DNA of 28,668 bases from a virus. Positions 1 to 28,668 of the stretch are shown in pieces (position 1 is the first letter of the stretch; each line of letters begins with the position of its first letter). Both the position numbers and the translations under genes were made by a program. The DNA lies in IMG/VR virus record IMGVR_UViG_3300030116_000212, positions 1-28,668 of that record. One strand, written 5' to 3'. The notes under the pieces were generated by a model. It was not told the DNA's origin, ran no database searches, and saw nothing but the letters and a program-made list of their open reading frames with translations.

Positions 1-1
1 T

Positions 2-1648
2 CAAGAGATGGCAGAAATTATTTTAAGGAGGTCTAGGTCAAGTTTAGACATTAGCCTTATTGCTGACGCAACTGCGTTGGATTTAGCAGTAGGTGATATA
101 GTAAATATAACTCATGCTACACCAAGTTTTTCAGCTAAACCATTTAGAGTACAAGGGTTAAATGTGAATAGTAATTATACAGTTACTATGCAATGCTCAG
201 AGCATCAAGATAGCTTTTACACTTTTGGAACACAGCAAGAGGTAGCAAGTATACCAAACACGACATTACCTAACCCTTTTGTAATACAACCCCCAGCAAG
301 TGTAACATTATCAGATCAACTCATAGAATATAATGATGGAACAGTTATTGTGGCTTTAGATGTTACTATAGGAGCATCACCAGACAACTTTATAGATTTT
401 TACCAAGTAGAATACAAACTTAGCACTGATTCAGATTTTATTATTTATGCTCAAGGCTCTGGATTAAATCATAGAGTGTTAAATGTGATTGATCAGCAAA
501 CTTATGATGTAAGAGTAAAAGCTGTAAATAGTGCTGGAGTATCTTCAACCTTTGTATCTGCTCAAAGAAAGATAGTAGGAGCAATAGCACCACCATCAGA
601 TATAACAGATTTCTCTTGTAATGTATCTGGTCAAGAAGCTCATTTGTCTTGGGAAGCTGTAACGGATTTAGATTTAGCTTTTTATAATTTAAGGTTCTCT
701 GAAGAAACTGACGGAACTGCCGACTGGCAAAACTCTGTGGCATTAGTAGAAAAAATATCTAGACCAGCTACATCAATATCCGTACCAGTAAGACAAGGCA
801 CATATTTAATTAAAGCAGTAGATAAACTAGGCAACTTTAGTTCTAACGCAACTGCAATTATATCTAATGTGACAAGTGCTATAAACTTTAACAATATCAC
901 CACACAAGCAGAACACCCTACTTTCGGAGGAACATTTACAGATACTATTTTAGTAGATAATGCTATTGAGTTAGATAGTACAGAATTATTTGATTCTGCT
1001 AGTGGCAACTTTGATGATGATACAGATAGATTTTTTGACCAAGGTGCAAGTAACTTTGATTTTGTATCAAGTGGTAACTATGAATTTGCAAATGTTATTG
1101 ATATAGGAGCAAAGCATACTGTAAGAATAACTGCATCAATGACACAAACTTCTGACAATCCAGATGATTTATTTGATGGAAGAACTGGTAATTTTGATGA
1201 TGCAAGTTCTAACTTTGACGGAGATACCCCAGCTAACTGTAATGCTCATTTAGAAATAGCAACTAGTGACGATAATGTAACATTTACAGACTTTAGAGGA
1301 TTTGTTATTGGTGAATATGAAGCAAGATATTTAAAATTTAGAGTTGTATTAATTTCAAGAGATAACGCATCAACCCCAGTTGTTTCAGCAGTTTCCGTTA
1401 CAGTTGATATGCAAGACAGAATATTTAGTGGCAATGATATCGTTTCTGGTACAAGTACTAAATCAATAGTATTTGACAAGCCATTTAAAACTGTTAATTA
1501 TGCTGTAGGTGTAACAGCACAAGGAATGGCAACTGGAGATTATTTTAATGTGAGCAATAAAGCTATTACTGGTTTTGACGTAGCGTTCTTTAATAGTTCT
1601 AACGCTGGAGTATCAAAAACATTTGATTTTATTGCAAAAGGATTTTAA
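2..1648 (+). CDS. Tail tip / host specificity protein (gpJ-like), C-terminal part, 5' partial
   Basis: The reading frame is open to the left edge, and the first in-window Met (position 8) has no ribosome binding site, so the gene starts outside the window. Counting from that Met, residues 1-75 look like the end of the gpJ base-of-tip domain (LRRSRS, LAVGDIVNITH, FRVQG). Residues about 94-190 and 193-290 resemble two fibronectin type III repeats. Residues about 324-407 carry repeated Asp/Phe/Asn motifs (SGNFDDD, SNFDF, TGNFDD, SNFDGD). Residues 470-546 resemble a C-terminal beta domain seen on other gpJ proteins (DIVSG, FDKPF, GDYFNVSNK, FDFIAKGF). The protein would sit at the tail tip and contact the host. 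The matching N-terminus appears to be at the right edge of the window. Family call confident; individual domain limits approximate. Confidence 0.85.
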   Translation, partial: QEMAEIILRRSRSSLDISLIADATALDLAVGDIVNITHATPSFSAKPFRVQGLNVNSNYTVTMQCSEHQDSFYTFGTQQEVASIPNTTLPNPFVIQPPASVTLSDQLIEYNDGTVIVALDVTIGASPDNFIDFYQVEYKLSTDSDFIIYAQGSGLNHRVLNVIDQQTYDVRVKAVNSAGVSSTFVSAQRKIVGAIAPPSDITDFSCNVSGQEAHLSWEAVTDLDLAFYNLRFSEETDGTADWQNSVALVEKISRPATSISVPVRQGTYLIKAVDKLGNFSSNATAIISNVTSAINFNNITTQAEHPTFGGTFTDTILVDNAIELDSTELFDSASGNFDDDTDRFFDQGASNFDFVSSGNYEFANVIDIGAKHTVRITASMTQTSDNPDDLFDGRTGNFDDASSNFDGDTPANCNAHLEIATSDDNVTFTDFRGFVIGEYEARYLKFRVVLISRDNASTPVVSAVSVTVDMQDRIFSGNDIVSGTSTKSIVFDKPFKTVNYAVGVTAQGMATGDYFNVSNKAITGFDVAFFNSSNAGVSKTFDFIAKGF

Positions 1649-8394: not shown

Positions 8395-8428
8395 AACCCT
8401 AGCTTGTCATAAGGCTAGGGTTCTCTTT
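8395..8428 (+). terminator. Strong rho-independent terminator ending the late transcript
   Basis: AACCCTAGC (8395-8403) pairs perfectly with GCTAGGGTT (8414-8422) over a 10-base loop, followed by CTCTTT. It lies 17 bases after the last late-type gene and upstream of the early promoter region, a natural boundary between the late and early blocks. Confidence 0.75.
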
Positions 8429-8498: not shown

Positions 8499-8529
8499 TT
8501 GAATAACCTAAAAATTCTGCTAGGTTATT
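8499..8529 (+). promoter_or_regulatory. Promoter/operator unit 1 of the early region
   Basis: TTGAAT (8499-8504) lies 16 bases before TAGGTT (8521-8526). The same interval carries a perfect 9-base inverted repeat, AATAACCTA (8502-8510) and TAGGTTATT (8521-8529), separated by 10 bases. The arrangement is repeated at 9209-9237. A repressor or activator binding the palindrome would cover both promoter boxes. The -10 box is a weak match to TATAAT, so a phage-modified or activated promoter is possible. A role as an RNA hairpin is an alternative. Confidence 0.5.
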
Positions 8530-8569
8530 AATAATGAAGATATTTAATAATAATAATAATGAGGATAAA

Positions 8570-9163
8570 ATGAAAAAATTTAATTTCGAAAAAATAGATA
8601 CAACTTTCAAAAGTAAAAATTATACTGGAGATGAGATTGTAGTTAAAGATGCTATGAAATATGAGTATGAGTTTCTTAAAGATCATATTGAAGTAGACAA
8701 AATATATCTTACTGACCAAGAAAAAGAAATATGGTCAATGGTAAAAGATTACGTTGTTAATAAAAAACAAACAACACTTAGACATACTAGCCTTGCCGAT
8801 AAACTTAAAGATTATGTTTGGAAAACTATAGGTCATAGACAATCACCAAAAAATTATAGTTATGCTAATGAGAGTGGTTACTCTGATATGTACCCATACG
8901 AAATAGTAAAAGTAGTTAGTGAAAACACTATTGAGATTAGACCAATGGACACAGAAAGAGATGATTCAGTAGAGCTTAAATGGGTATCTGGTGGGTTTGC
9001 TGGTCATTGTGTTAATCAAGGTGAGCAGAAATGGTTTTATAAATCAAACCCAGACAATCCTGTTAAAAGAATCAGAAGAAGAAAAGATGGTTACTTTTAT
9101 AATCATTGTAATAGAGTTTATCTTGAGCAAGAGCCAAGAAAATTTCACGACTATAACTTTTAA
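8570..9163 (+). CDS. Early hypothetical protein with a GGFAGHCVNQ...FHDYNF domain
   Basis: I chose the ATG at 8570, preceded by AATGAGGATAAA; an in-frame ATG at 8534 would add an Asn-rich leader and has no ribosome site. From 8570 the protein is 197 residues. The N-terminal half is acidic and helical (DAMKYEYEFLKDHIEVDKIYL). The C-terminal half has ESGYSDMYPYEIVKVVSENT, then GGFAGHCVNQGEQKWFY, RIRRRKDGYFY and a terminal EPRKFHDYNF. A domain with this pattern is widespread in phages and marine bacteria without a known function. It is the first gene of the early block, followed by its own terminator, so it may act early against or on the host. Confidence 0.75.
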   Translation: MKKFNFEKIDTTFKSKNYTGDEIVVKDAMKYEYEFLKDHIEVDKIYLTDQEKEIWSMVKDYVVNKKQTTLRHTSLADKLKDYVWKTIGHRQSPKNYSYANESGYSDMYPYEIVKVVSENTIEIRPMDTERDDSVELKWVSGGFAGHCVNQGEQKWFYKSNPDNPVKRIRRRKDGYFYNHCNRVYLEQEPRKFHDYNF

Positions 9164-9166
9164 TAT

Positions 9167-9197
9167 AAGGGTGTTTAATCACACCCTTTCTTATTTT
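9167..9197 (+). terminator. Terminator after the first early gene
   Basis: AAGGGTGT (9167-9174) pairs with ACACCCTT (9181-9188) over a 6-base loop, followed by TCTTATTTT. It begins four bases after the stop codon and makes the first early gene a single-gene transcript ahead of the second promoter unit. Confidence 0.75.
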
Positions 9198-9208
9198 GTA
9201 TAAAGGGT

Positions 9209-9237
9209 TTGACAAAACCTAGAAAATAAATTAGGTT
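9209..9237 (+). promoter_or_regulatory. Promoter/operator unit 2 of the early region
   Basis: A consensus -35 TTGACA (9209-9214) lies 17 bases before TAGGTT (9232-9237). AACCTA (9216-9221) and TAGGTT form an inverted repeat with a 10-base spacer, matching the geometry at 8502-8529. The downstream 18 bases starting with TAGGTTATT are identical in both units (8521-8538 and 9232-9249). It probably drives the long early operon from 9275 onward. Confidence 0.6.
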
Positions 9238-9274
9238 ATTAATAATGAATAATAATAATAAAAAGGAGAAAATA

Positions 9275-9622
9275 ATGAAGAGAAGTTTTATGAATCAAGA
9301 TCAAAAGCATAGATATTTTACTAAGCAAGTTAAAAGAAGTAAAAGACAACTTTTAAAACAAAACTTTAAATATGATGCTACTAAAATTAATCCTATAAAG
9401 ATGCAATTTACTTTAGAAGAATTAGGACAGCTTGTATCAGCATTAGAAATTTCCATAAGTAAAGACAAAGTTTTAAATGGCAAAATAGAAATGCCAGAAG
9501 AGTTTGTTGATAATAGAAGAAAGTTTATGGAAACTTTACAATCTGAAATAGAAAACAAATGGAAAGAAGTTTACAGAAGCGAAGATCAAGACATAGTAAG
9601 AAAAAACAAGGAGAGTGCTTAA
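9275..9622 (+). CDS. Early hypothetical protein
   Basis: The ATG at 9275 follows AAAAAGGAGAAAATA; an upstream in-frame ATG at 9245 would add an Asn/Lys leader (MNNNNKKEKI) and is unlikely. The 115-residue protein has a basic N-terminus (KHRYFTKQVKRSKRQLLKQN), a helical middle (FTLEELGQLVSALEISIS) and an acidic helical end. No known motif is recognised. The stop codon lies in the loop of a hairpin at 9611-9632. Confidence 0.7.
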   Translation: MKRSFMNQDQKHRYFTKQVKRSKRQLLKQNFKYDATKINPIKMQFTLEELGQLVSALEISISKDKVLNGKIEMPEEFVDNRRKFMETLQSEIENKWKEVYRSEDQDIVRKNKESA

Positions 9623-9632: not shown

Positions 9633-9659
9633 CTACTTAATAATAATAAGGAGAAATAA

Positions 9660-9953
9660 ATGATAATAAACGGAATACAAAGAAAAGTATCTTTAACAAT
9701 GGCATTTAAAGAAAAGGTTGCTAGTGATATTAGAGTACTAATAGAAGCTGGTCATAATACTTTCGGTAGGCTTAGAAAGAAACTGCCACAGTATGAGGAC
9801 AATGAAATCAAATCAGCTTTACGATATGCAAAGACTAACGCTATCCAGTCAGCTAAATCAGTAGGCACTAGAATGAACTCAAGATTAGTTATAAGCAGTT
9901 ATTTAATTGTAAAACCAAAGAGCAAAAAAACTTATGAGGTAATAAAAGTATGA
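9660..9953 (+). CDS. Small basic early protein, possible winged-helix
   Basis: This 97-residue basic protein follows AAGGAGAAATAA. The middle (ASDIRVLIEAGHNTFGRLRK, then LPQYEDNEIKSALRYAKTN) looks like a three-helix DNA-binding fold with F-x2-L-x2-KL as the recognition region, followed by beta strands (LVISSYLIVKP). A transcription regulator is plausible but unproven; it is a candidate for the factor binding the AACCTA/TAGGTT palindromes. The stop overlaps the next start (ATGA). Confidence 0.6.
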   Translation: MIINGIQRKVSLTMAFKEKVASDIRVLIEAGHNTFGRLRKKLPQYEDNEIKSALRYAKTNAIQSAKSVGTRMNSRLVISSYLIVKPKSKKTYEVIKV

Positions 9954-12590: not shown

Positions 12591-12827
12591 ATGAGCCAAC
12601 CAAAAATAAAAAAACTATCACAGAAAGAAATGATATTACAACATTTGAAAGAAGGTAAAGGTATTACAAGTTTAGATGCCTTACGAAAATTCGGTTGCTT
12701 CAGATTAAGTGATAGAATATTTGTATTAAGAAAAGAAGGTAATGATATTACCACAAACTATATCACTAAAGGTGGTAAAACTTTTGCTGAATATATTTTA
12801 GAAGAAAATAAACAGGGAGAGTTTTAA
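12591..12827 (+). CDS. Helix-turn-helix protein (PF14090-like)
   Basis: The ATG at 12591 follows GAAAGGAG (12577-12584); an upstream in-frame ATG at 12543 lies inside the previous gene and lacks a site. The 78-residue protein reads LSQKEMILQHLKEGKGITSL, then DALRKFGCFRLSDRIFVLRK, then ITTNYITKGGKTFAEYIL. This fits a winged HTH of the kind common in phage early regions. It probably binds DNA as a regulator or replication accessory. It abuts the next gene without a gap. Confidence 0.75.
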   Translation: MSQPKIKKLSQKEMILQHLKEGKGITSLDALRKFGCFRLSDRIFVLRKEGNDITTNYITKGGKTFAEYILEENKQGEF

Positions 12828-13157
12828 ATGACAAAATTAACTGATGAAGAGTATTTAAATAAAGTTTGTAAAGAAAACAGATTTACTATTAAATTTAAAC
12901 AAGTCAAAACTGGTTCATCAAAAAAGAAATATGTAAATTGTATAGTGAATATGGAAGATTTAATTAAATGGAGGTTAAAATATGGTATTTCACAACAAGA
13001 TATGGTCACAATAGGTATGATGGGTATGAACCTTAGAAAGTTACAACAATTAGAGGAAAATGAAACTGCATTAATTGGTCACCAAGTTATGAGAAAAATA
13101 CGAATGAATAATTTAGTTGATGTAGAATTTATTGAAGAAGAAAATCAAAATGCGTGA
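12828..13157 (+). CDS. Early hypothetical protein
   Basis: The 109-residue protein is basic at the N-terminus and acidic at the end (DVEFIEEENQN). It has a short helical middle (MEDLIKWRLKYGISQQDMVT, then MGMNLRKLQQLEENETALI). The ISQQDMVTIG region loosely recalls a helix-turn-helix but is not convincing. The ribosome site GGGAG lies in the end of the previous gene. Function unknown. Confidence 0.65.
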   Translation: MTKLTDEEYLNKVCKENRFTIKFKQVKTGSSKKKYVNCIVNMEDLIKWRLKYGISQQDMVTIGMMGMNLRKLQQLEENETALIGHQVMRKIRMNNLVDVEFIEEENQNA

Positions 13158-13224: not shown

Positions 13225-14009
13225 TAGAGCATTTTAAAAAGTTTGATACTAAAGATAAAAAAAGTATTTTACCATTATCATTTAGTCAGCTAACAGAGTT
13301 TGCATTTAATAGAGAACGCTGGGCGTTGAGAAGAATATTTGGTTATGAGTTTGATACAAACCCAGCAATGCAAAGAGGAAGTGTTGTAGAAAGTGGCTTA
13401 AATATGTGGCTTAACGGAACAGATCAGAAAGAAGCAATAGATAAGATGCTTAATGAGTATGATGATAACTGTTCTGGTTTAGCTGGTGACAAGGTAGCTA
13501 GTGAAAGAGAAAACCTTGTTCCATTATTTAATGAAGGAGTACAAAGACTAACTAATTATGCTTTCAAATGGGATTTAATAGGTTATCAAAACAAAATAGA
13601 AATGGATATAGAAGGAATACCATTAGTAGGCTTTACAGATTTTCAATTTGAAGATAAGTCAACTAAAGAAAATTTTTACGTTGATCTAAAAACTACTTTG
13701 AGAAAACCAACTGGCATTTCATATTCTCACGCAATGCAACAAAGTATATACCACCAATGCACCAACGCAGAACAAAGATTATGGTATTTAGTTTGCAAAA
13801 AATCTGGCACAGAGTTTTATGAATACAGCTTAGACGACTACCAGAAACCTATGAAGATATGCAACCATATAGTCAAGGTAATGGGTTCATTTTTGCAAAA
13901 GGTAGATACCTTAGATGATGTTAAGAACTTGCTGATTCCAAACCCAGACGACTGGATATGGAAAGAGGAAGCAGTACATAAAGCTAGAGTTGAGGTATGG
14001 GGGTATTAA
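13221..14009 (+). CDS. PD-(D/E)XK nuclease (RecB/Cas4-type exonuclease)
   Basis: The 262-residue protein has the ordered motifs of the family: LSFSQLTEF near residue 19, QRGSVVES (R52, G53, E57), GFTDFQF (D140), FYVDLKTT (D155, K157) and the MQQSIY motif (Q173, Y177). It would degrade duplex DNA ends and act in recombination or replication repair, as phage exonucleases do. No Cys cluster for a Cas4 iron-sulphur centre is visible. The start is coupled to the micropeptide stop. The stop codon lies in the loop of a weak hairpin at 14000-14016. Confidence 0.85.
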   Translation: MIEHFKKFDTKDKKSILPLSFSQLTEFAFNRERWALRRIFGYEFDTNPAMQRGSVVESGLNMWLNGTDQKEAIDKMLNEYDDNCSGLAGDKVASERENLVPLFNEGVQRLTNYAFKWDLIGYQNKIEMDIEGIPLVGFTDFQFEDKSTKENFYVDLKTTLRKPTGISYSHAMQQSIYHQCTNAEQRLWYLVCKKSGTEFYEYSLDDYQKPMKICNHIVKVMGSFLQKVDTLDDVKNLLIPNPDDWIWKEEAVHKARVEVWGY

Positions 14010-14019
14010 TTACCCCTTT
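14000..14019 (+). terminator. Weak terminator or hairpin at the end of the nuclease gene
   Basis: GGGGTA (14000-14005) pairs with TACCCC (14011-14016) over the loop TTAAT, which contains the TAA stop; TTT follows. The short T-run suggests partial termination. It resembles the stop-in-loop hairpin at 9611-9632. Confidence 0.45.
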
Positions 14020-14046
14020 ACCAAAATCATTATTTAGGTTTAAAAT
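14018..14046 (+). promoter_or_regulatory. Possible promoter for the replication gene
   Basis: TTACCA (14018-14023) lies exactly 17 bases before TAAAAT (14041-14046), each one or two bases from consensus. It lies in the longest intergenic gap of this block and directly after a weak terminator. AT-rich DNA produces such matches often, so the call is tentative. Confidence 0.35.
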
Positions 14047-14063
14047 AATATAAGGAGAAAATT

Positions 14064-14903
14064 ATGACATTTATAAGTAAGGAAAGTAAACCACAAGAAA
14101 AACTAAAAGCATGGTATTTATTTACTGAAGATTTTGTTGCTGGAACAATGAGTAACACAGCAGTTGAAGTTGGGGTGTATATAAGATTGTTATGCTGGAA
14201 CTGGAACAAGAGATGCCAAGGTATACCAAAAGATAGCAACACATACTATAGAATAGCAAACTGTATCACAGAAGAAGAAAAAAAGGCTTGTGAAACAGTA
14301 TTGAAACAATTTTTTGTAGAGGTTCAAGATCATTACCAGAATGAAAGACAGCTACAAGAGTATTTATTTATCACTAAAAGAATAGAAGCATCTAAGATAA
14401 ATGGTAGGCTTGGTGGTAGACCAAAAAAACCTAGACAAAACCCCCCTACCCTAACCACTACCCCTACCATTAAACCTAAAACCAAAAAGAAAGATAATTT
14501 TCCTTTATTTTGGAATGATATATCAAATAAAGTCAGTAAGGGTATAGCAGAAAAGAATTACAAATCTTTAGATGCAGAATGGCAAAATAAACCAGTAGAA
14601 TTAGCAGAAATGTATAATAAGTATTACCACAGCATAGAAGACAAACGTTATGCCAAGCAACCAGCATACTGGATATCAGCTAAGAAGTATGAAGATCAAG
14701 AAGCTAAAATAGAAAACAAATCTGGAGAAGTATATCCTTTAAGATTAAAAATGTTTAAACAAGCAATAGAAGATAAAGATAAAAGTTCATTTATCACTAG
14801 TTTTGCAAACCAACATTTTCCAGATGTACAAAGAGCAATTAAGGAAGGAGAAATAACTAAAGAAGATGCAGTAAAGTATTTAAACATGGGTAACAGATTA
14901 TAA
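14064..14903 (+). CDS. DUF1376-type phage replication protein
   Basis: Residues about 12-115 match the DUF1376 pattern: KLKAWYLFTEDFVAGTMSNT, then EVGVYIRLLCWNW, then a helical stretch with VLKQFF. GRLGGRPKKPRQ and a Pro/Thr linker (residues about 124-142) follow. The C-terminal domain has FPLFWNDISNKVSKGIAEKN and KQPAYWISAKKYED, like other phage replication initiators of this type. It probably recognises the origin and loads host replication proteins, since no polymerase or helicase is encoded here. ATAAGGAGAAAATT precedes the ATG. The DNA of the linker holds C-rich repeats that could be origin iterons. Confidence 0.75.
   Translation: MTFISKESKPQEKLKAWYLFTEDFVAGTMSNTAVEVGVYIRLLCWNWNKRCQGIPKDSNTYYRIANCITEEEKKACETVLKQFFVEVQDHYQNERQLQEYLFITKRIEASKINGRLGGRPKKPRQNPPTLTTTPTIKPKTKKKDNFPLFWNDISNKVSKGIAEKNYKSLDAEWQNKPVELAEMYNKYYHSIEDKRYAKQPAYWISAKKYEDQEAKIENKSGEVYPLRLKMFKQAIEDKDKSSFITSFANQHFPDVQRAIKEGEITKEDAVKYLNMGNRL
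14443..14468 (+). repeat. C-rich short repeats in the replication gene linker
   Basis: CCCCTACC occurs at 14443-14450 and 14461-14468, with the variant CCCTAACC between them at 14449-14456. The patch is strikingly C-rich for this AT-rich genome. Iterons inside an initiator gene's linker would resemble the lambda O arrangement, but the codons for Pro and Thr could explain the bias on their own. Confidence 0.35.
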
Positions 14904-18686: not shown

Positions 18687-18973
18687 TGGCAGAATATAGA
18701 GGTAAACAAGTTAAGCTAAATAAACCTTTTAGATTATCTGCTAGTGAATCAAAAAGAAAAAAGTTTGGTGTATATGTAAAAGAAAAGTCTACTGGTAAAA
18801 TTAAAAAAGTAACCTTTGGTGCAAGAGGTATGAGTATCAAGAAGAGTATACCAGCTAGGCAGAAGTCATTTCTAGCTAGAATGGGTGGTGTATTAAAAGA
18901 AGTAAAAGGTCAAAAGTCTTTATCACCAGCTTACTGGTCTATTAGAGCTTGGAAAAAGAACTTTCCGTTGTAA
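18686..18973 (+). CDS. Small basic head-region protein
   Basis: The 95-residue protein contains KFGVYVKEKSTGKIKKVTFG, then GMSIKKSIPARQKSFLARMG and YWSIRAWKKNFPL. The pattern (K-F-x-VYVK, V-x-FG, P-x-R-x-KSFxAR, YWSxxxW) resembles a domain seen attached to or near prohead proteases and core proteins in marine phages. The usual Cys residues of that domain are absent here. It is the third of three coupled basic genes. A role in the prohead core is inferred. Confidence 0.65.
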   Translation: MAEYRGKQVKLNKPFRLSASESKRKKFGVYVKEKSTGKIKKVTFGARGMSIKKSIPARQKSFLARMGGVLKEVKGQKSLSPAYWSIRAWKKNFPL

Positions 18974-18976
18974 TGA

Positions 18977-20674
18977 ATGTCAAGGATATTAGAAAAACTA
19001 GCTGATCAACACGAAGAACGTATGATCAATGTATTATACAAACTGGAAGAAGATGTTGTAAAAGAAGTTACAAGAGCCACTAAAGGACAACTAGTATCAC
19101 AAAGATTAGCAATACAATTAAGACCTAAAATAAAAGAGTTAGTAGAAAACAACTTTCTTAATGAAGCTGATCTAATAATAAATGAAGAATACAACAAAAT
19201 AGCAAAAGAGGTACTAGATACATTTGGTGAAATGCCTATACCCAACAAATTTAAAAGTCTTACAGAAGCAAACCTATCTACTATTAATGCACTAAAGTTT
19301 CAAAGTTATTCTGGCTTTGAAGATATAGGCGAAAGATTTATCAAGGTAATTAATGATGAGTTATACCAAAGTACAATAGCTGGTAGACCTTTTGAAGATA
19401 TGGTTAGCAATATTAGATCACATATCAATGGAGTGTATAAAAAATCAAATCAAAGAGAGATTAATGAGCTAGTAGATTTTATCAATGAGAATAAATATGA
19501 TAAGTTTAAAAAATCTCAAGTAGAAGAGGCTGTTAGAAAACTACATACTCAATATGCTAGTGATAGAGCTGGTAATAATTTAAGAAGATATGCTGGACAG
19601 ATAGCACACGATAGCGTAATGCAGTTTCACGGACAGTTTACCATAGCTAAAGCTAAAGAAAGTGGACTTACCCATTTTACTTATACTGGTACATTAGTAA
19701 GAGATAGCCGAGATTGGTGTAGAGGAATATTAGGTAAAACCTATACAGAAAAACAAATAAGAGAACTTTGGAACACTAGGTCTTGGAATGGAAAAGCAAA
19801 TGGCGACCCATTTATAGTAAGAGGTGGTTATAGATGCAGACATACTTGGATACCAACAGACCCAGCTTGGGGTGAAGAAACACTTGATGAATTACCACCA
19901 GAGGAAGATATAGAAGAAACAACACCAAAAGTATCACAGAATTTAGCATCAGTTGTAACAGCACCAAAAAGAAAATTTGGCAAATATAAAGGATTAACAG
20001 ACGAGCAAGTAAAAAAAGTAGTAGATAAAGATTTAAAAAGTCAGCTTACACCTACAACATTAAAAGTATTTAATAATGTTCCTTTAGTAAATGGAATTAC
20101 ACTTAATCAAAAAAGAGCATATTTTAGACCAGAAGAAGATACACTTGTAACTAATGCTAAAGCTGGAACACTAGCACACGAATATGGACATTATATAGAT
20201 TACAAAACTGGCAGTAGAAAAATAAGACAGTTTGAGCGTCAGCCTAAACCTTGGTCATTTGAAAATAAAAAATTTAGAGAAGCATTTGAAAAAGATGCAG
20301 AAAATTTTACATCAGATGCTACTAAAGGTTCAAATAAATTGCAAAAATATTTTGATGAATTAGTTGAAATTAGATATTACGAAAAAAAAGTAAGAGGAAA
20401 AATAAGAGAAACTGGTTATTATGAGGGAAAGTTAGAAGGAGATGATAGAATTACTGATATTATAGATGCTTTAGTAAATGGTAGATTTCACTCTCTTTAT
20501 AAAGCACCCGGACACGGACTTGACTATTACAGAAAAGTAGAACTCCGAATGACAGAAACATTTGCTAATTTATTTGCAGTACAAAACAATAAAAGAGCTT
20601 TAAATATTTTAAAAGATATAGTGCCTAACACTATGAAACAATTTGATGAAAGGATAAAAGAACTTGCTAAGTGA
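18977..20674 (+). CDS. MuF-like minor head protein fused to an HExxH metallopeptidase-like domain
   Basis: Residues 1-200 are helical. Residues about 205-295 are a MuF-type domain: GQIAHDSVMQFHGQFTIAKA, THFTYTGTLVRDSRDWCRGI (C248), GDPFIVRGGYRCRHTWIP (C287, H289). An acidic linker (about 298-325) leads to a C-terminal domain with AGTLAHEYGHYIDYKTG (H401, E402, H405) and a downstream MTETFANLF (E527). That is the ligand layout of a gluzincin-type zinc peptidase, as in toxin-like zincins. MuF proteins sit inside heads near the portal. The extra domain could be an ejected effector or a maturation protease. At 565 residues it is longer than MuF alone. Confidence 0.85.
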   Translation: MSRILEKLADQHEERMINVLYKLEEDVVKEVTRATKGQLVSQRLAIQLRPKIKELVENNFLNEADLIINEEYNKIAKEVLDTFGEMPIPNKFKSLTEANLSTINALKFQSYSGFEDIGERFIKVINDELYQSTIAGRPFEDMVSNIRSHINGVYKKSNQREINELVDFINENKYDKFKKSQVEEAVRKLHTQYASDRAGNNLRRYAGQIAHDSVMQFHGQFTIAKAKESGLTHFTYTGTLVRDSRDWCRGILGKTYTEKQIRELWNTRSWNGKANGDPFIVRGGYRCRHTWIPTDPAWGEETLDELPPEEDIEETTPKVSQNLASVVTAPKRKFGKYKGLTDEQVKKVVDKDLKSQLTPTTLKVFNNVPLVNGITLNQKRAYFRPEEDTLVTNAKAGTLAHEYGHYIDYKTGSRKIRQFERQPKPWSFENKKFREAFEKDAENFTSDATKGSNKLQKYFDELVEIRYYEKKVRGKIRETGYYEGKLEGDDRITDIIDALVNGRFHSLYKAPGHGLDYYRKVELRMTETFANLFAVQNNKRALNILKDIVPNTMKQFDERIKELAK

Positions 20675-20876
20675 TAAAGAAATAGATAAAAGACTTGATG
20701 AAGCTACATTACCAGAGGACTATGAAAAGTTATATATAGATATGTTTGGGGAAAAAGTGCCAACAAGGAGTGATACTTGGGGCGAGTTTCCAGTAGATAT
20801 GATTTTAGAAGCTATTGATAAAAAGAAACCAATAGAAAAAGAACAATTATATGAAGAAGGAAAAATAATCCTATAG
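20664..20876 (+). CDS. Small acidic protein downstream of the MuF-metallopeptidase
   Basis: This 70-residue acidic protein starts with TTG, overlapping the end of the MuF gene by 11 bases, with GAAAGGA at 20648-20654 as a distant site. It reads LSDKEIDKRLDEATLPEDYE, then IDMFGEKVPTRSDTWGEFPV and ILEAIDKKKPIEKEQLYEEG. No family recognised. The tight coupling to a toxin-like domain makes an inhibitor or immunity role conceivable; a structural accessory is equally possible. Confidence 0.6.
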   Translation: MLSDKEIDKRLDEATLPEDYEKLYIDMFGEKVPTRSDTWGEFPVDMILEAIDKKKPIEKEQLYEEGKIIL

Positions 20877-20908
20877 TTACAGATAATGTAGATTTTACTG
20901 TAAAACTT

Positions 20909-20917
20909 TGATATAAA
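20909..20917 (+). promoter_or_regulatory. Possible extended -10 promoter before the scaffold and capsid genes
   Basis: TGATATAAA fits TGnTATAAT with one mismatch and lies in the 66-base gap before the scaffold gene, the longest gap in the head block. No clear -35 is seen, as for the lysis promoter at 6914-6922. An adjacent TTTTACTGTAAAA is a short inverted repeat (20893-20905). Confidence 0.35.
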
Positions 20918-20942
20918 TAAATTACAACTGGAGAATATAAAC

Positions 20943-21659
20943 ATGGATAAACAACAAGAACAAAATCAAGTAGAACAAACTGCTCAAACTACTGAGGAAG
21001 TTCAAACACCGATAGTAGAGGAAAAAACAAAAGAAAAAACTTTTACTAAAGATGAGCTGAATGAAATAGTAGAAAGAAGATTATTAAAAGACCGATTAGC
21101 AATAAATAAAAGATTAGGAGTTGATGATATAGACACAGCAGTCAATATAGTGAAGGCACAAAAAGATACAGAGGAAAAACAAAAAATACAAAAGGGTGAG
21201 TTTGAGGAAATATTGAAAAATAAAAGTCAAGAATGGAACAAAGAAAAAGCTAACCTTGAAAGTCAACTTAGAGATATTAAAATAAATAAATCTTTATTAT
21301 CTTCAGCATCAAAGAACAGGGCAATAAATCCAGACCAAGTTGTAGAATTATTAAATAAAAATATTAAATTAAATGAAACTGGTAATGTAGAAATACTAGA
21401 CAAAAACGGAATTGCAAGATATAACAGCAATGGGGAACTCTTAACAACTGACGAGTTAGTGCAAGAGTTTTTAACACAGAACCCACACTTTGTTAGTGCT
21501 ACTCCTAGTGGCTCTGGCTCTGTGTCAAATGTGGATAGAGGAGAACTCAGCTCCGTATTTAAAATTGAGGATTTAGATATGAGTAACCCAAAGGATAGAG
21601 AGAAGTATGCTAAGTGGAAACAAAAGCGTAACTCTCAACCAAGGGTAATAAACTCATAA
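20943..21659 (+). CDS. Capsid scaffolding protein (GP20/DUF4355-like)
   Basis: This 238-residue protein has the usual scaffold profile: a disordered Gln/Glu/Thr-rich N-terminus (QQEQNQVEQTAQTTEEVQTP). It continues with FTKDELNEIVERRLLKDRLA and a long coiled coil (about 70-115, KQKIQKGEFEEILKNKSQEW). Later come SASKNRAINPDQVVELLNKN and a C-terminal basic stretch that could bind the coat protein. It lies directly before the major capsid gene. It would guide prohead assembly and be expelled or degraded, perhaps by the nearby metallopeptidase-like protein. Confidence 0.85.
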   Translation: MDKQQEQNQVEQTAQTTEEVQTPIVEEKTKEKTFTKDELNEIVERRLLKDRLAINKRLGVDDIDTAVNIVKAQKDTEEKQKIQKGEFEEILKNKSQEWNKEKANLESQLRDIKINKSLLSSASKNRAINPDQVVELLNKNIKLNETGNVEILDKNGIARYNSNGELLTTDELVQEFLTQNPHFVSATPSGSGSVSNVDRGELSSVFKIEDLDMSNPKDREKYAKWKQKRNSQPRVINS

Positions 21660-21690
21660 TTTTTAATTTTTTTAATTTAATGGAGTTAAC

Positions 21691-22533
21691 ATGGCAAACG
21701 AAACTACAAGTAGTACTATATCAGAACTCTATACTGAGATAGTAGCAGAAGCGTTATTTGTTGCTAATGAGCAATCAATAATGAGAAACTTGGTCAGAAA
21801 CTACACTATTGCTGGTGGAGGTAAATCAGTAGAAGTACCTATTTACGGAACTGTATCAGCATCAGCAGTCAATGAAGCAACTGACCTATCAAACACAGCA
21901 GTAAACCCAACATCTGTTACAATAACAGCAACAGAAAAAGGAATTATGACTACACTAACTGATTTAGCAAGAAACTCAGCATCAAGGAATGTTGCTGGAG
22001 ATATTGGTAAGTTATTCGGTGAAGCTATAGCAAAGAAGATGGATCAAGATTTAATAGCTTTATTTGATGGATTTTCTACTAGCATAGGTGGTGCTGGAAC
22101 TGAATTAACTATAGACAATATATTTAAAGCAGTTGCAACACTAAGACAAGCTAATGTTCCTATGCCTTATTATGGGGTATTCAATCCAAAAGTTATCTAT
22201 AATGTAAAGAAATCATTAACGAATACTTTTGTAAATCCTAATGGTGGTGATCTACAGAATGAAGCTATGAGAACTGGTTTTATTGGAACTATAGCTGGTG
22301 TTCAAATATTTGAATCTTCTAACGTAGATGGAACAACTGATACAGATAATTGTAAAGGTGGTATCTTTTCTCAAGATGCTTTAGGTTTAGCAATGATGCA
22401 AGACTTAAAACTTGAAACTCAAAGAGATGCGTCTTTAAGAGCTGACGAAATTGTAGCTACAGCAGTTTATGGAGTTGGAGAACTTCATGATAGTTATGGT
22501 ATCGAGATGCTTAACGAATCTGTTATTAACTAA
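21691..22533 (+). CDS. Major capsid protein
   Basis: The 280-residue protein has the features of an HK97-fold coat: a helical N-terminus (TISELYTEIVAEALFVANEQ). It continues with GGGKSVEVPIYGTVSAS and TITATEKGIMTTLTDLARNS, a long helix with KKMDQDLIALFDGF, and a C-terminal domain (ATLRQANVPMPYYGVFNPKV, GTIAGVQIFESSNV, ATAVYGVGELHD). It follows scaffold and is followed by a terminator, the usual place for a coat gene. GGAGTTAAC precedes the ATG. No N-terminal delta domain or protease site is evident. Confidence 0.88.
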   Translation: MANETTSSTISELYTEIVAEALFVANEQSIMRNLVRNYTIAGGGKSVEVPIYGTVSASAVNEATDLSNTAVNPTSVTITATEKGIMTTLTDLARNSASRNVAGDIGKLFGEAIAKKMDQDLIALFDGFSTSIGGAGTELTIDNIFKAVATLRQANVPMPYYGVFNPKVIYNVKKSLTNTFVNPNGGDLQNEAMRTGFIGTIAGVQIFESSNVDGTTDTDNCKGGIFSQDALGLAMMQDLKLETQRDASLRADEIVATAVYGVGELHDSYGIEMLNESVIN

Positions 22534-27874: not shown

Positions 27875-28440
27875 TGGCTAGGGGTTTAACAAGTGCAGTA
27901 AAAACCGAACTAGCAACAGGTAATATAGAGCCAGTATTATTATTAGAAATAGGTTTTAGTACTCCAGTATATTTAACAAATGCAAGTTTTGACATTACTT
28001 CTAGCGTTTCTGGAAGCTCAAGAACTTATTTATCAAATGGTCATTTGAAAAGTATTACAGATATAAGTGAAACAAACGTGCCTACAAAGAATACATTAAG
28101 TATAAGTTTATCTGGTGTAGACCAAACTTATATAAGTGTAGCACTAAATGAGAACATAATTAATGATGATGTTTATATCTACAGAGGTTTTTTAAATAGT
28201 AGTTTGGCTTTAATATCTGACCCTTACTTATCTTTTTTTGGAACAATAGACGAATATAATATAAAAGATGATACCAATACTGCGTCTTTAGTTTTGAGTG
28301 TAACTTCACATTGGGGAAACTTTAGCAAAGTAAATGGCAGAACTACTACAGATAATTCACAACAAAAGGTATTTAGTGGCGACAAAGGTATGGAGTTCTC
28401 TGCACTAACTGTTAAAGATATAAAGTGGGGTAGAGTGTAA
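27874..28440 (+). CDS. Minor tail protein (DUF2163 / gpL-like)
   Basis: The 188-residue beta-rich protein has ARGLTSAVKTELATGNIEPV, then LLLEIGFSTPVYLTNASFDI, SITDISETNVPTKNTLSISL and DDVYIYRGFLNS, followed by FFGTIDEYNIKDDTNTASLV and a final SHWGNFSKVNGR. This resembles the DUF2163 type of distal tail component placed just upstream of gpJ. No Cys cluster is present, so an iron-sulphur site as in lambda gpL is not supported. It overlaps the previous gene by one base and abuts the tail tip gene. Confidence 0.72.
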   Translation: MARGLTSAVKTELATGNIEPVLLLEIGFSTPVYLTNASFDITSSVSGSSRTYLSNGHLKSITDISETNVPTKNTLSISLSGVDQTYISVALNENIINDDVYIYRGFLNSSLALISDPYLSFFGTIDEYNIKDDTNTASLVLSVTSHWGNFSKVNGRTTTDNSQQKVFSGDKGMEFSALTVKDIKWGRV

Positions 28441-28668
28441 ATGGGTTTATTTAAATCTATAAAAAGAGCTGTATCTAAAACTTTTGATTTTGTTGGAGAT
28501 TTAGTAGGTGACGTAATAGGCTGGTTAGTACCAGAACCAGAGATACCAGATTTTGGACAAGACTTCTCTGATGAAAATAATAGAGGTGCATTAGTAAATA
28601 AATTTAATGCTAATGCTCATATTCCAATAGTATATGGCACAAGAAAAGTTGGTGGTAATGTTGTATTT
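28441..28668 (+). CDS. Tail tip protein (gpJ-like), N-terminal part, 3' partial
   Basis: The frame is open to the right edge for 76 codons. The N-terminus MGLFKSIKRAVSKTFDFVGD is amphipathic; then LVGDVIGWLVPEPEIPDFGQ and NANAHIPIVYGTRKVGGNVV, a typical start of gpJ-family hub proteins. The C-terminal part of such a protein is at the left edge of the window. The remaining middle region is not in the window. Start chosen as the ATG right after the previous stop. Confidence 0.8.
   Translation, partial: MGLFKSIKRAVSKTFDFVGDLVGDVIGWLVPEPEIPDFGQDFSDENNRGALVNKFNANAHIPIVYGTRKVGGNVVF

Follow-up and report, generated by a model that had tools for sequence, protein, structure and literature searches.

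Two similar promoter-operator units are found at positions 8499-8538 and 9209-9249 of the window, i.e., the whole stretch of 28,668 nt analysed here (IMG/VR virus record IMGVR_UViG_3300030116_000212), all main genes of which are on the + strand. The earlier note had described at these places a repeated set of elements in which a palindrome overlaps a promoter and an 18-nt stretch (TAGGTTATTAATAATGAA) is identical. Every element was recovered there, the palindrome at 8505-8526 and 9216-9237. The features of the two units and the candidate regulator are:

8395-8422, + strand: terminator-like hairpin (11-bp stem, T-rich tail) at the end of the late region that precedes unit 1
8499-8504, + strand: -35-like TTGAAT of unit 1; the best local promoter score is its pairing with TAGGTT over a 16-nt spacer
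8505-8526, + strand: operator 1, AACCTA-N10-TAGGTT, an exact match; present in relatives too
8518-8526, + strand: extended -10-like TGC-TAGGTT over the right arm of operator 1, from the promoter score
8545-8559, + strand: (TAA)5 leader of unit 1, read from the sequence
8570-9163, + strand: first early gene, 197 aa, match to phrog_19789, with a GAGG Shine-Dalgarno site at 8561-8564
9167-9188, + strand: predicted terminator-like hairpin 3' of the first early gene
9209-9214, + strand: perfect -35 TTGACA of unit 2, 17 nt before TAGGTT at 9232-9237
9216-9237, + strand: operator 2, AACCTA-N10-TAGGTT, whose TAGGTT (9232-9237) is both right arm and -10
9250-9261, + strand: (TAA)4 leader of unit 2, read from the sequence and followed by AAGGAG at 9263-9268
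9275-9622, + strand: second early gene, 115 aa, the first of a long early operon, with a Shine-Dalgarno-preceded start
12591-12827, + strand: winged-helix protein, PF14090 (HTH_39), candidate operator-binding regulator from co-occurrence and fold

AACCTA-N10-TAGGTT has exactly two perfect matches in the window, 711 bp apart. In 1000 dinucleotide shuffles of the window it occurs 0.005 times on average, and two copies are never reached. The symmetry of operator 1 extends to 9-bp arms (AATAACCTA/TAGGTTATT, spanning 8502-8529), and the shared 18-nt stretch, at 8521-8538 and 9232-9249, takes in the right arm of the palindrome. Among 28,598 + strand window positions, the promoter of unit 1 (TAGGTT at 8521-8526) ranks 40 and is mediocre taken alone, and that of unit 2 ranks 3. 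The mechanically called ORFs start at 8534 and 9245; the likely starts are 8570 and 9275, each of which follows a Shine-Dalgarno site. A terminator-like hairpin precedes each unit, so the gene at 8570-9163 seems to be transcribed as a unit of its own, with unit 2 opening the long early operon; no + strand terminator is predicted between 9188 and 16000. A third leader of the (TAA)n plus GGAG kind is found at 9638-9661, before gene 9660. It has no palindrome, so leader and operator can occur separately.

The terminase of the window is 53-56% identical to those of the pelagiphages HTVC111P, HTVC026P, HTVC112P, and HTVC202P and of the lake phage DSL-LC06, and terminase searches in IMG/VR gave hundreds of closer uncultured relatives. 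Within these uncultured, pelagiphage-like siphoviruses, which form a large clade, the palindrome marks early promoters. No match to PF00589 (tyrosine-type integrase) was found in the window or in 22 other records, so that the PF00589 search did not reveal in the window the integrase that would mark a temperate immunity system. Prophage relatives were not found among species-level genomes, where the terminase had no more than four matches in genome contigs, all of them distant. A long tail gene is cut by the start of the window (1-1648; 546 aa present vs. 961 aa in the G002 homologue, 18825-21710), and the gene preceding it is cut by the end (28440-28668), indicating a permuted genome that is nearly complete but lacks a short piece.

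The window was compared with relatives in a set of 46 records, consisting of 41 virus contigs found via window proteins and five phage isolates. The exact palindrome occurs in 18 of the 46, while the reversed control pattern occurs in none. Absence of the repeats from all close relatives had been named beforehand as grounds for giving up the proposal; the palindrome is in fact kept across relatives, and it persists in diverged ones despite different spacers, flanks, and downstream genes. Neither the exact palindrome nor PF14090 was found in the isolates HTVC111P, HTVC026P, HTVC112P, HTVC202P, and DSL-LC06. When whole contigs were read, the sites fell into three classes at syntenic positions. 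Class A is the head of the early region, as in the window units. Class B is upstream of the orthologue of gene 10775 (seen in four contigs by the upstream scan, plus one more case at a contig end). Class C is upstream of the replication gene 14064 and takes the form AACCAA- or TACCAA-N10-TAGGTT. In the window it consists of:

14019-14040, + strand: diverged operator TACCAA-N10-TAGGTT upstream of 14064; orthologues share the site
14017-14046, + strand: promoter-like TTTACC-18-TAAAAT over the class C site, rank 18 of 28,598
14064-14903, + strand: DUF1376/primosomal-type replication protein, probable third target

A class C site with two or fewer mismatches is found in 19 of 24 orthologues of 14064 (shuffled mean 4.4 mismatches, z = -15). 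Since just 30 shuffles underlie the z values, with related contigs counted as independent, and since the late gene 23233 also scored z = -8, only class C is relied on, given its large effect and fixed position. Gene 14064 is a probable third target of the regulon. In the window a hairpin (GGGGTATTAATTACCCC, 13999-14016) lies across the stop codon of the nuclease gene 13221 and directly abuts the class C site on its upstream side. In other relatives the hairpin is a different one, AACCCC...GGGGTT, at or just past the site. Class C sites thus overlap other hairpins as well as a stop codon, which may account for part of their conservation.

The relation of promoter and palindrome was scored in a non-redundant set of 53 class A contexts, which includes a few class C or chance matches that passed the same filter. 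The weight matrix approximates the E. coli sigma-70 consensus as generally known. The best sigma-70-type promoter has a mean score of 8.1 vs. 4.2 when flanks and spacer are shuffled, i.e., -35 and -10 elements at 16-18 nt spacing are present above chance. A promoter with a good score lies in the palindrome registers at 44/53 sites (shuffles: mean 1.9, maximum 7). Within the palindrome the -10 lies at one of three offsets: 9 in 12 sites, 11 in 23 sites, and 16 in 11 sites. At most class A sites the promoter that runs through the palindrome is an ordinary one, similar to TTGACA/TATAAT. The window units use register 16, in which TAGGTT is operator arm and -10 at once. An extended -10 (TGn) is found in 8 of the 11 sites of this register, and unit 1 of the window has TGC.

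The surroundings of the class A sites are also regular. TAATAATAA is found 3' of 42/53 class A sites but at only 42 of 9600 random places. Two tandem units exist in 16 contigs besides the window, and three in contig L130. These units bracket short genes of different families, several of which have a terminator before the next unit, and by sequence the window pair is one case of this general tandem-unit design. Each early accessory gene is a cassette made of a promoter-operator, a (TAA)n leader, a short gene, and often a terminator, a build in which different genes can be swapped under the same control. Note that the collection-wide palindrome scan mixes in unrelated contigs; from it only those showing the full architecture, at least about 40 contigs, were used, and these only qualitatively. 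In unrelated contigs of about 46-50% GC another arrangement was seen, in which AACCTAGGGGAAACCCTAGGTT is followed by CTAACAnnTGTTAG-like repeats, mostly just before a start codon (L109, L122, L139, L140 with two copies, L142, L147, L161, L166, L179, L190, and L221). As RNA it would fold into a 9-bp stem capped by a GAAA tetraloop, and it may be a leader element used by a different group of phages.

Two proteins, those of genes 9660 and 12591, had been proposed earlier as regulators, and the data favor the latter, whose family (PF14090) co-occurs with the site. The 12591-12827 protein matches PF14090 at 49.2 bits (curated cut-off 21.3). A homologue is found in 19/19 contigs with the exact palindrome, the window included, and a separate Pfam search found PF14090 in 14/14 records of the clade vs. 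0/9 others. It is the only recognised helix-turn-helix (HTH) protein common to all exact-palindrome contigs. The AlphaFold2 monomer model (mean pLDDT 84.8) is a winged helix of the order H-H-H-E-E (three helices, beta hairpin), and RLSxxIxxLR is conserved in what is likely the recognition-helix region. Fold matches to Stf76 and the MarR-type repressors ZitR and AdcR are weak (best E = 0.017), no solved relative was convincing by sequence, and a literature search turned up no papers on PF14090. The modelled fold and the co-occurrence make the 12591 protein the most likely regulator, as a best candidate rather than as proof. The early genes 11185, 11610, 12218, and 13221 travel with PF14090, so that shared ancestry confounds the co-occurrence, and the regulator could instead be among these genes. 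The 12591 gene of the window and its orthologues in G037, G039, and G041 are 51-83% identical, and those of the neighbouring 12218 gene 80-100%, suggesting that the winged-helix gene may be exchanged or faster-evolving than its neighbours.

The 9660 protein did not hold up as the regulator. It is present in only 6/19 exact-palindrome contigs and also in four unrelated contigs without the site; its AlphaFold model is of low confidence (pLDDT 64.7), and no match was found among phage records. It is 91-94% identical in L100 (a contig of 58,402 bases), G032, G034, G035, and G036, which have little else in common with the window phage. Such near-identity in otherwise dissimilar contigs suggests recent transfer between different marine phages. 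The 12828-13157 protein was also considered, on the idea that it is a repressor of the XRE type whose gene is syntenic with HTH genes in HTVC111P and its relatives, and was set aside: aligned identity is 18-26%, there is no HTH match, and the protein is present only in the window and two contigs.

From the observed sites, their conservation, the promoter overlap, and the cassette design, we infer repression, a regulator, and a timing. At a probability of roughly 0.6, both units serve as promoter-operators in a single early regulon that is phage-wide and under a phage-encoded repressor, most likely the 12591 protein. The host RNA polymerase would start early transcription at the sigma-70-type promoters, which are covered by the 22-bp dyad AACCTA(G)-N8-(C)TAGGTT. 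A putative dimeric phage protein, most likely 12591-12827, would bind the dyad and block the polymerase. Early genes, including that of the regulator, would be on at entry and then jointly shut down, and the replication gene 14064 would be adjusted through its weaker site. Since the 12591 gene is inside the early operon, its repressor role would be self-limiting, and since no integrase was detected, the repressor would serve shut-off rather than lysogeny. Such a shut-off role is plausible in this phage. The proposal that one regulator controls the two genes with which the early region opens gains support from the conservation of the site in relatives.

The same palindrome could be the site of an activator, a phage protein that recruits the host polymerase to weak promoters of the early or middle phase. 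The earlier note leaned this way, taking TAGGTT, far from the -10 consensus, as a hint of an activated promoter. The -10 of register 16 is indeed poor, and class C sites show no consistent promoter register. TAGGTT is, however, the fixed right arm of the operator across the clade, which explains the odd -10, and the weak boxes are predicted to be compensated by the extended -10 (unit 1) or the perfect -35 (unit 2), so the hint was probably wrong. Most class A promoters are near consensus, so that many sites need no activator, and the palindrome sits on the core promoter rather than upstream of it. The promoter also slides in three registers, and shifts of 2, 5, and 7 bp against a fixed palindrome break helical phase. 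This suits occlusion, and the registers would fit a polymerase-blocking protein but not a fixed-face activator. We consider activation unlikely. Nor does it seem probable that a host-encoded transcription factor reads the palindrome and lets the phage sense the state of the host. That the regulator is phage-encoded is itself something we infer, and the host regulator CtrA is reported to control gene expression in alphaproteobacterial phages (PMC9437464). On the other hand, presence of the palindrome tracks a phage gene (the PF14090 homologue), and a host regulon was rejected because the palindrome is not enriched in 289 sampled alphaproteobacterial genomes (14 exact sites, spread over 12 genomes and not exceeding the count for the reversed-pattern control), a sample which may omit the true host.

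An operator regulon as proposed, but with a different early protein inherited alongside as its reader (11185, 12218, or one not recognised), is likewise given a low probability. The 11185 and 12218 proteins share the presence pattern of PF14090 in nearly all contigs, but they match no DNA-binding family, while 12591 is the sole recognised common HTH. It is very improbable that the repeat acts in RNA or is a recently copied promoter cassette without a regulator. While the window units have the promoter, the arms, and 18 nt in common, as duplication would give, the persistence of the palindrome in diverged relatives speaks against copying, and transcription is expected to start at or past the right arm, so that the hairpin would not be transcribed. 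A repressor-operator regulon is the preferred reading.

The promoter-operator pair is probably real, conserved, and functional. It is ordinary in kind; what is new is the sequence, the clade, and the candidate regulator, and its scope is wider than first noted. More tentatively, a whole clade of uncultured marine phages may use one conserved operator, read by a PF14090 winged-helix protein, to run a plug-in early region of exchangeable host-takeover or anti-defence cassettes under constant control, and if so the operator could act as bait for such genes. In transcriptomes of two other pelagiphages, the early genes of one were all called unknown in function (PMC12753301). Little is known of gene timing in pelagiphages without their own RNA polymerase. 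A conserved operator points to a testable regulator and delimits early transcription units in many unannotated genomes, flagging short, exchangeable, first-expressed genes, where host-takeover and anti-defence functions are expected. It would also lend such PF14090 proteins a proposed function.

No description of the AACCTA-N10-TAGGTT operator was found in the literature searched, and several known systems resemble it in part. In systems of the lambda cI/Cro type, early lytic promoters are under repressor-operator control. As in these, a dyad lies over the sigma-70 promoter heading the early region (overlap with the core promoter at 44/53 sites), several operators serve several promoters per genome (two exact and one diverged in the window, tandem units in relatives), and a small HTH protein, here a candidate, is encoded within the controlled operon. 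Unlike lambda, no integrase was found, there is one operator per promoter, and the candidate is modelled as a PF14090 winged helix rather than a Cro/CI fold. Morons are independently transcribed accessory gene cassettes. The resemblance is a short gene with its own promoter and often its own terminator, such as 8570-9163 between the promoter at 8499-8526 and the hairpin at 9167-9188, with similar cases in L107, L130, L187, and L188. The units described here differ from morons in being in the early region, in a phage where no integrase was found, and in having an operator common to neighbours.

In an HTVC010P-type pelagiphage without its own polymerase, two regulators are reported, as are sigma-70 promoters close to the replication genes (PMC10504331). 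The SAS/ESAS elements of Cluster K mycobacteriophages, a 13-bp ribosome-site repeat with imperfect 17-bp inverted repeats, are similar in that an inverted repeat and a leader recur in front of several phage genes and are rare in host genomes (PMC3203893), but the arms here are short, perfect 6-bp arms over a promoter, a different arrangement from SAS/ESAS. The 17-bp dyad repeats of Cluster O share invariant arms, a variable centre, and a cluster-wide distribution; they are present in more than 30 copies per genome, many of them intragenic, while the operators here are few and promoter-tied (PMC4351075). Cluster A stoperators also have a phage repressor (a candidate here) with many sites, early promoters included. 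Those sites are asymmetric, monomer-bound, and genome-wide, and they terminate elongation (PMC9283540), whereas the window sites are symmetric, two of them exact and both promoter-proximal.
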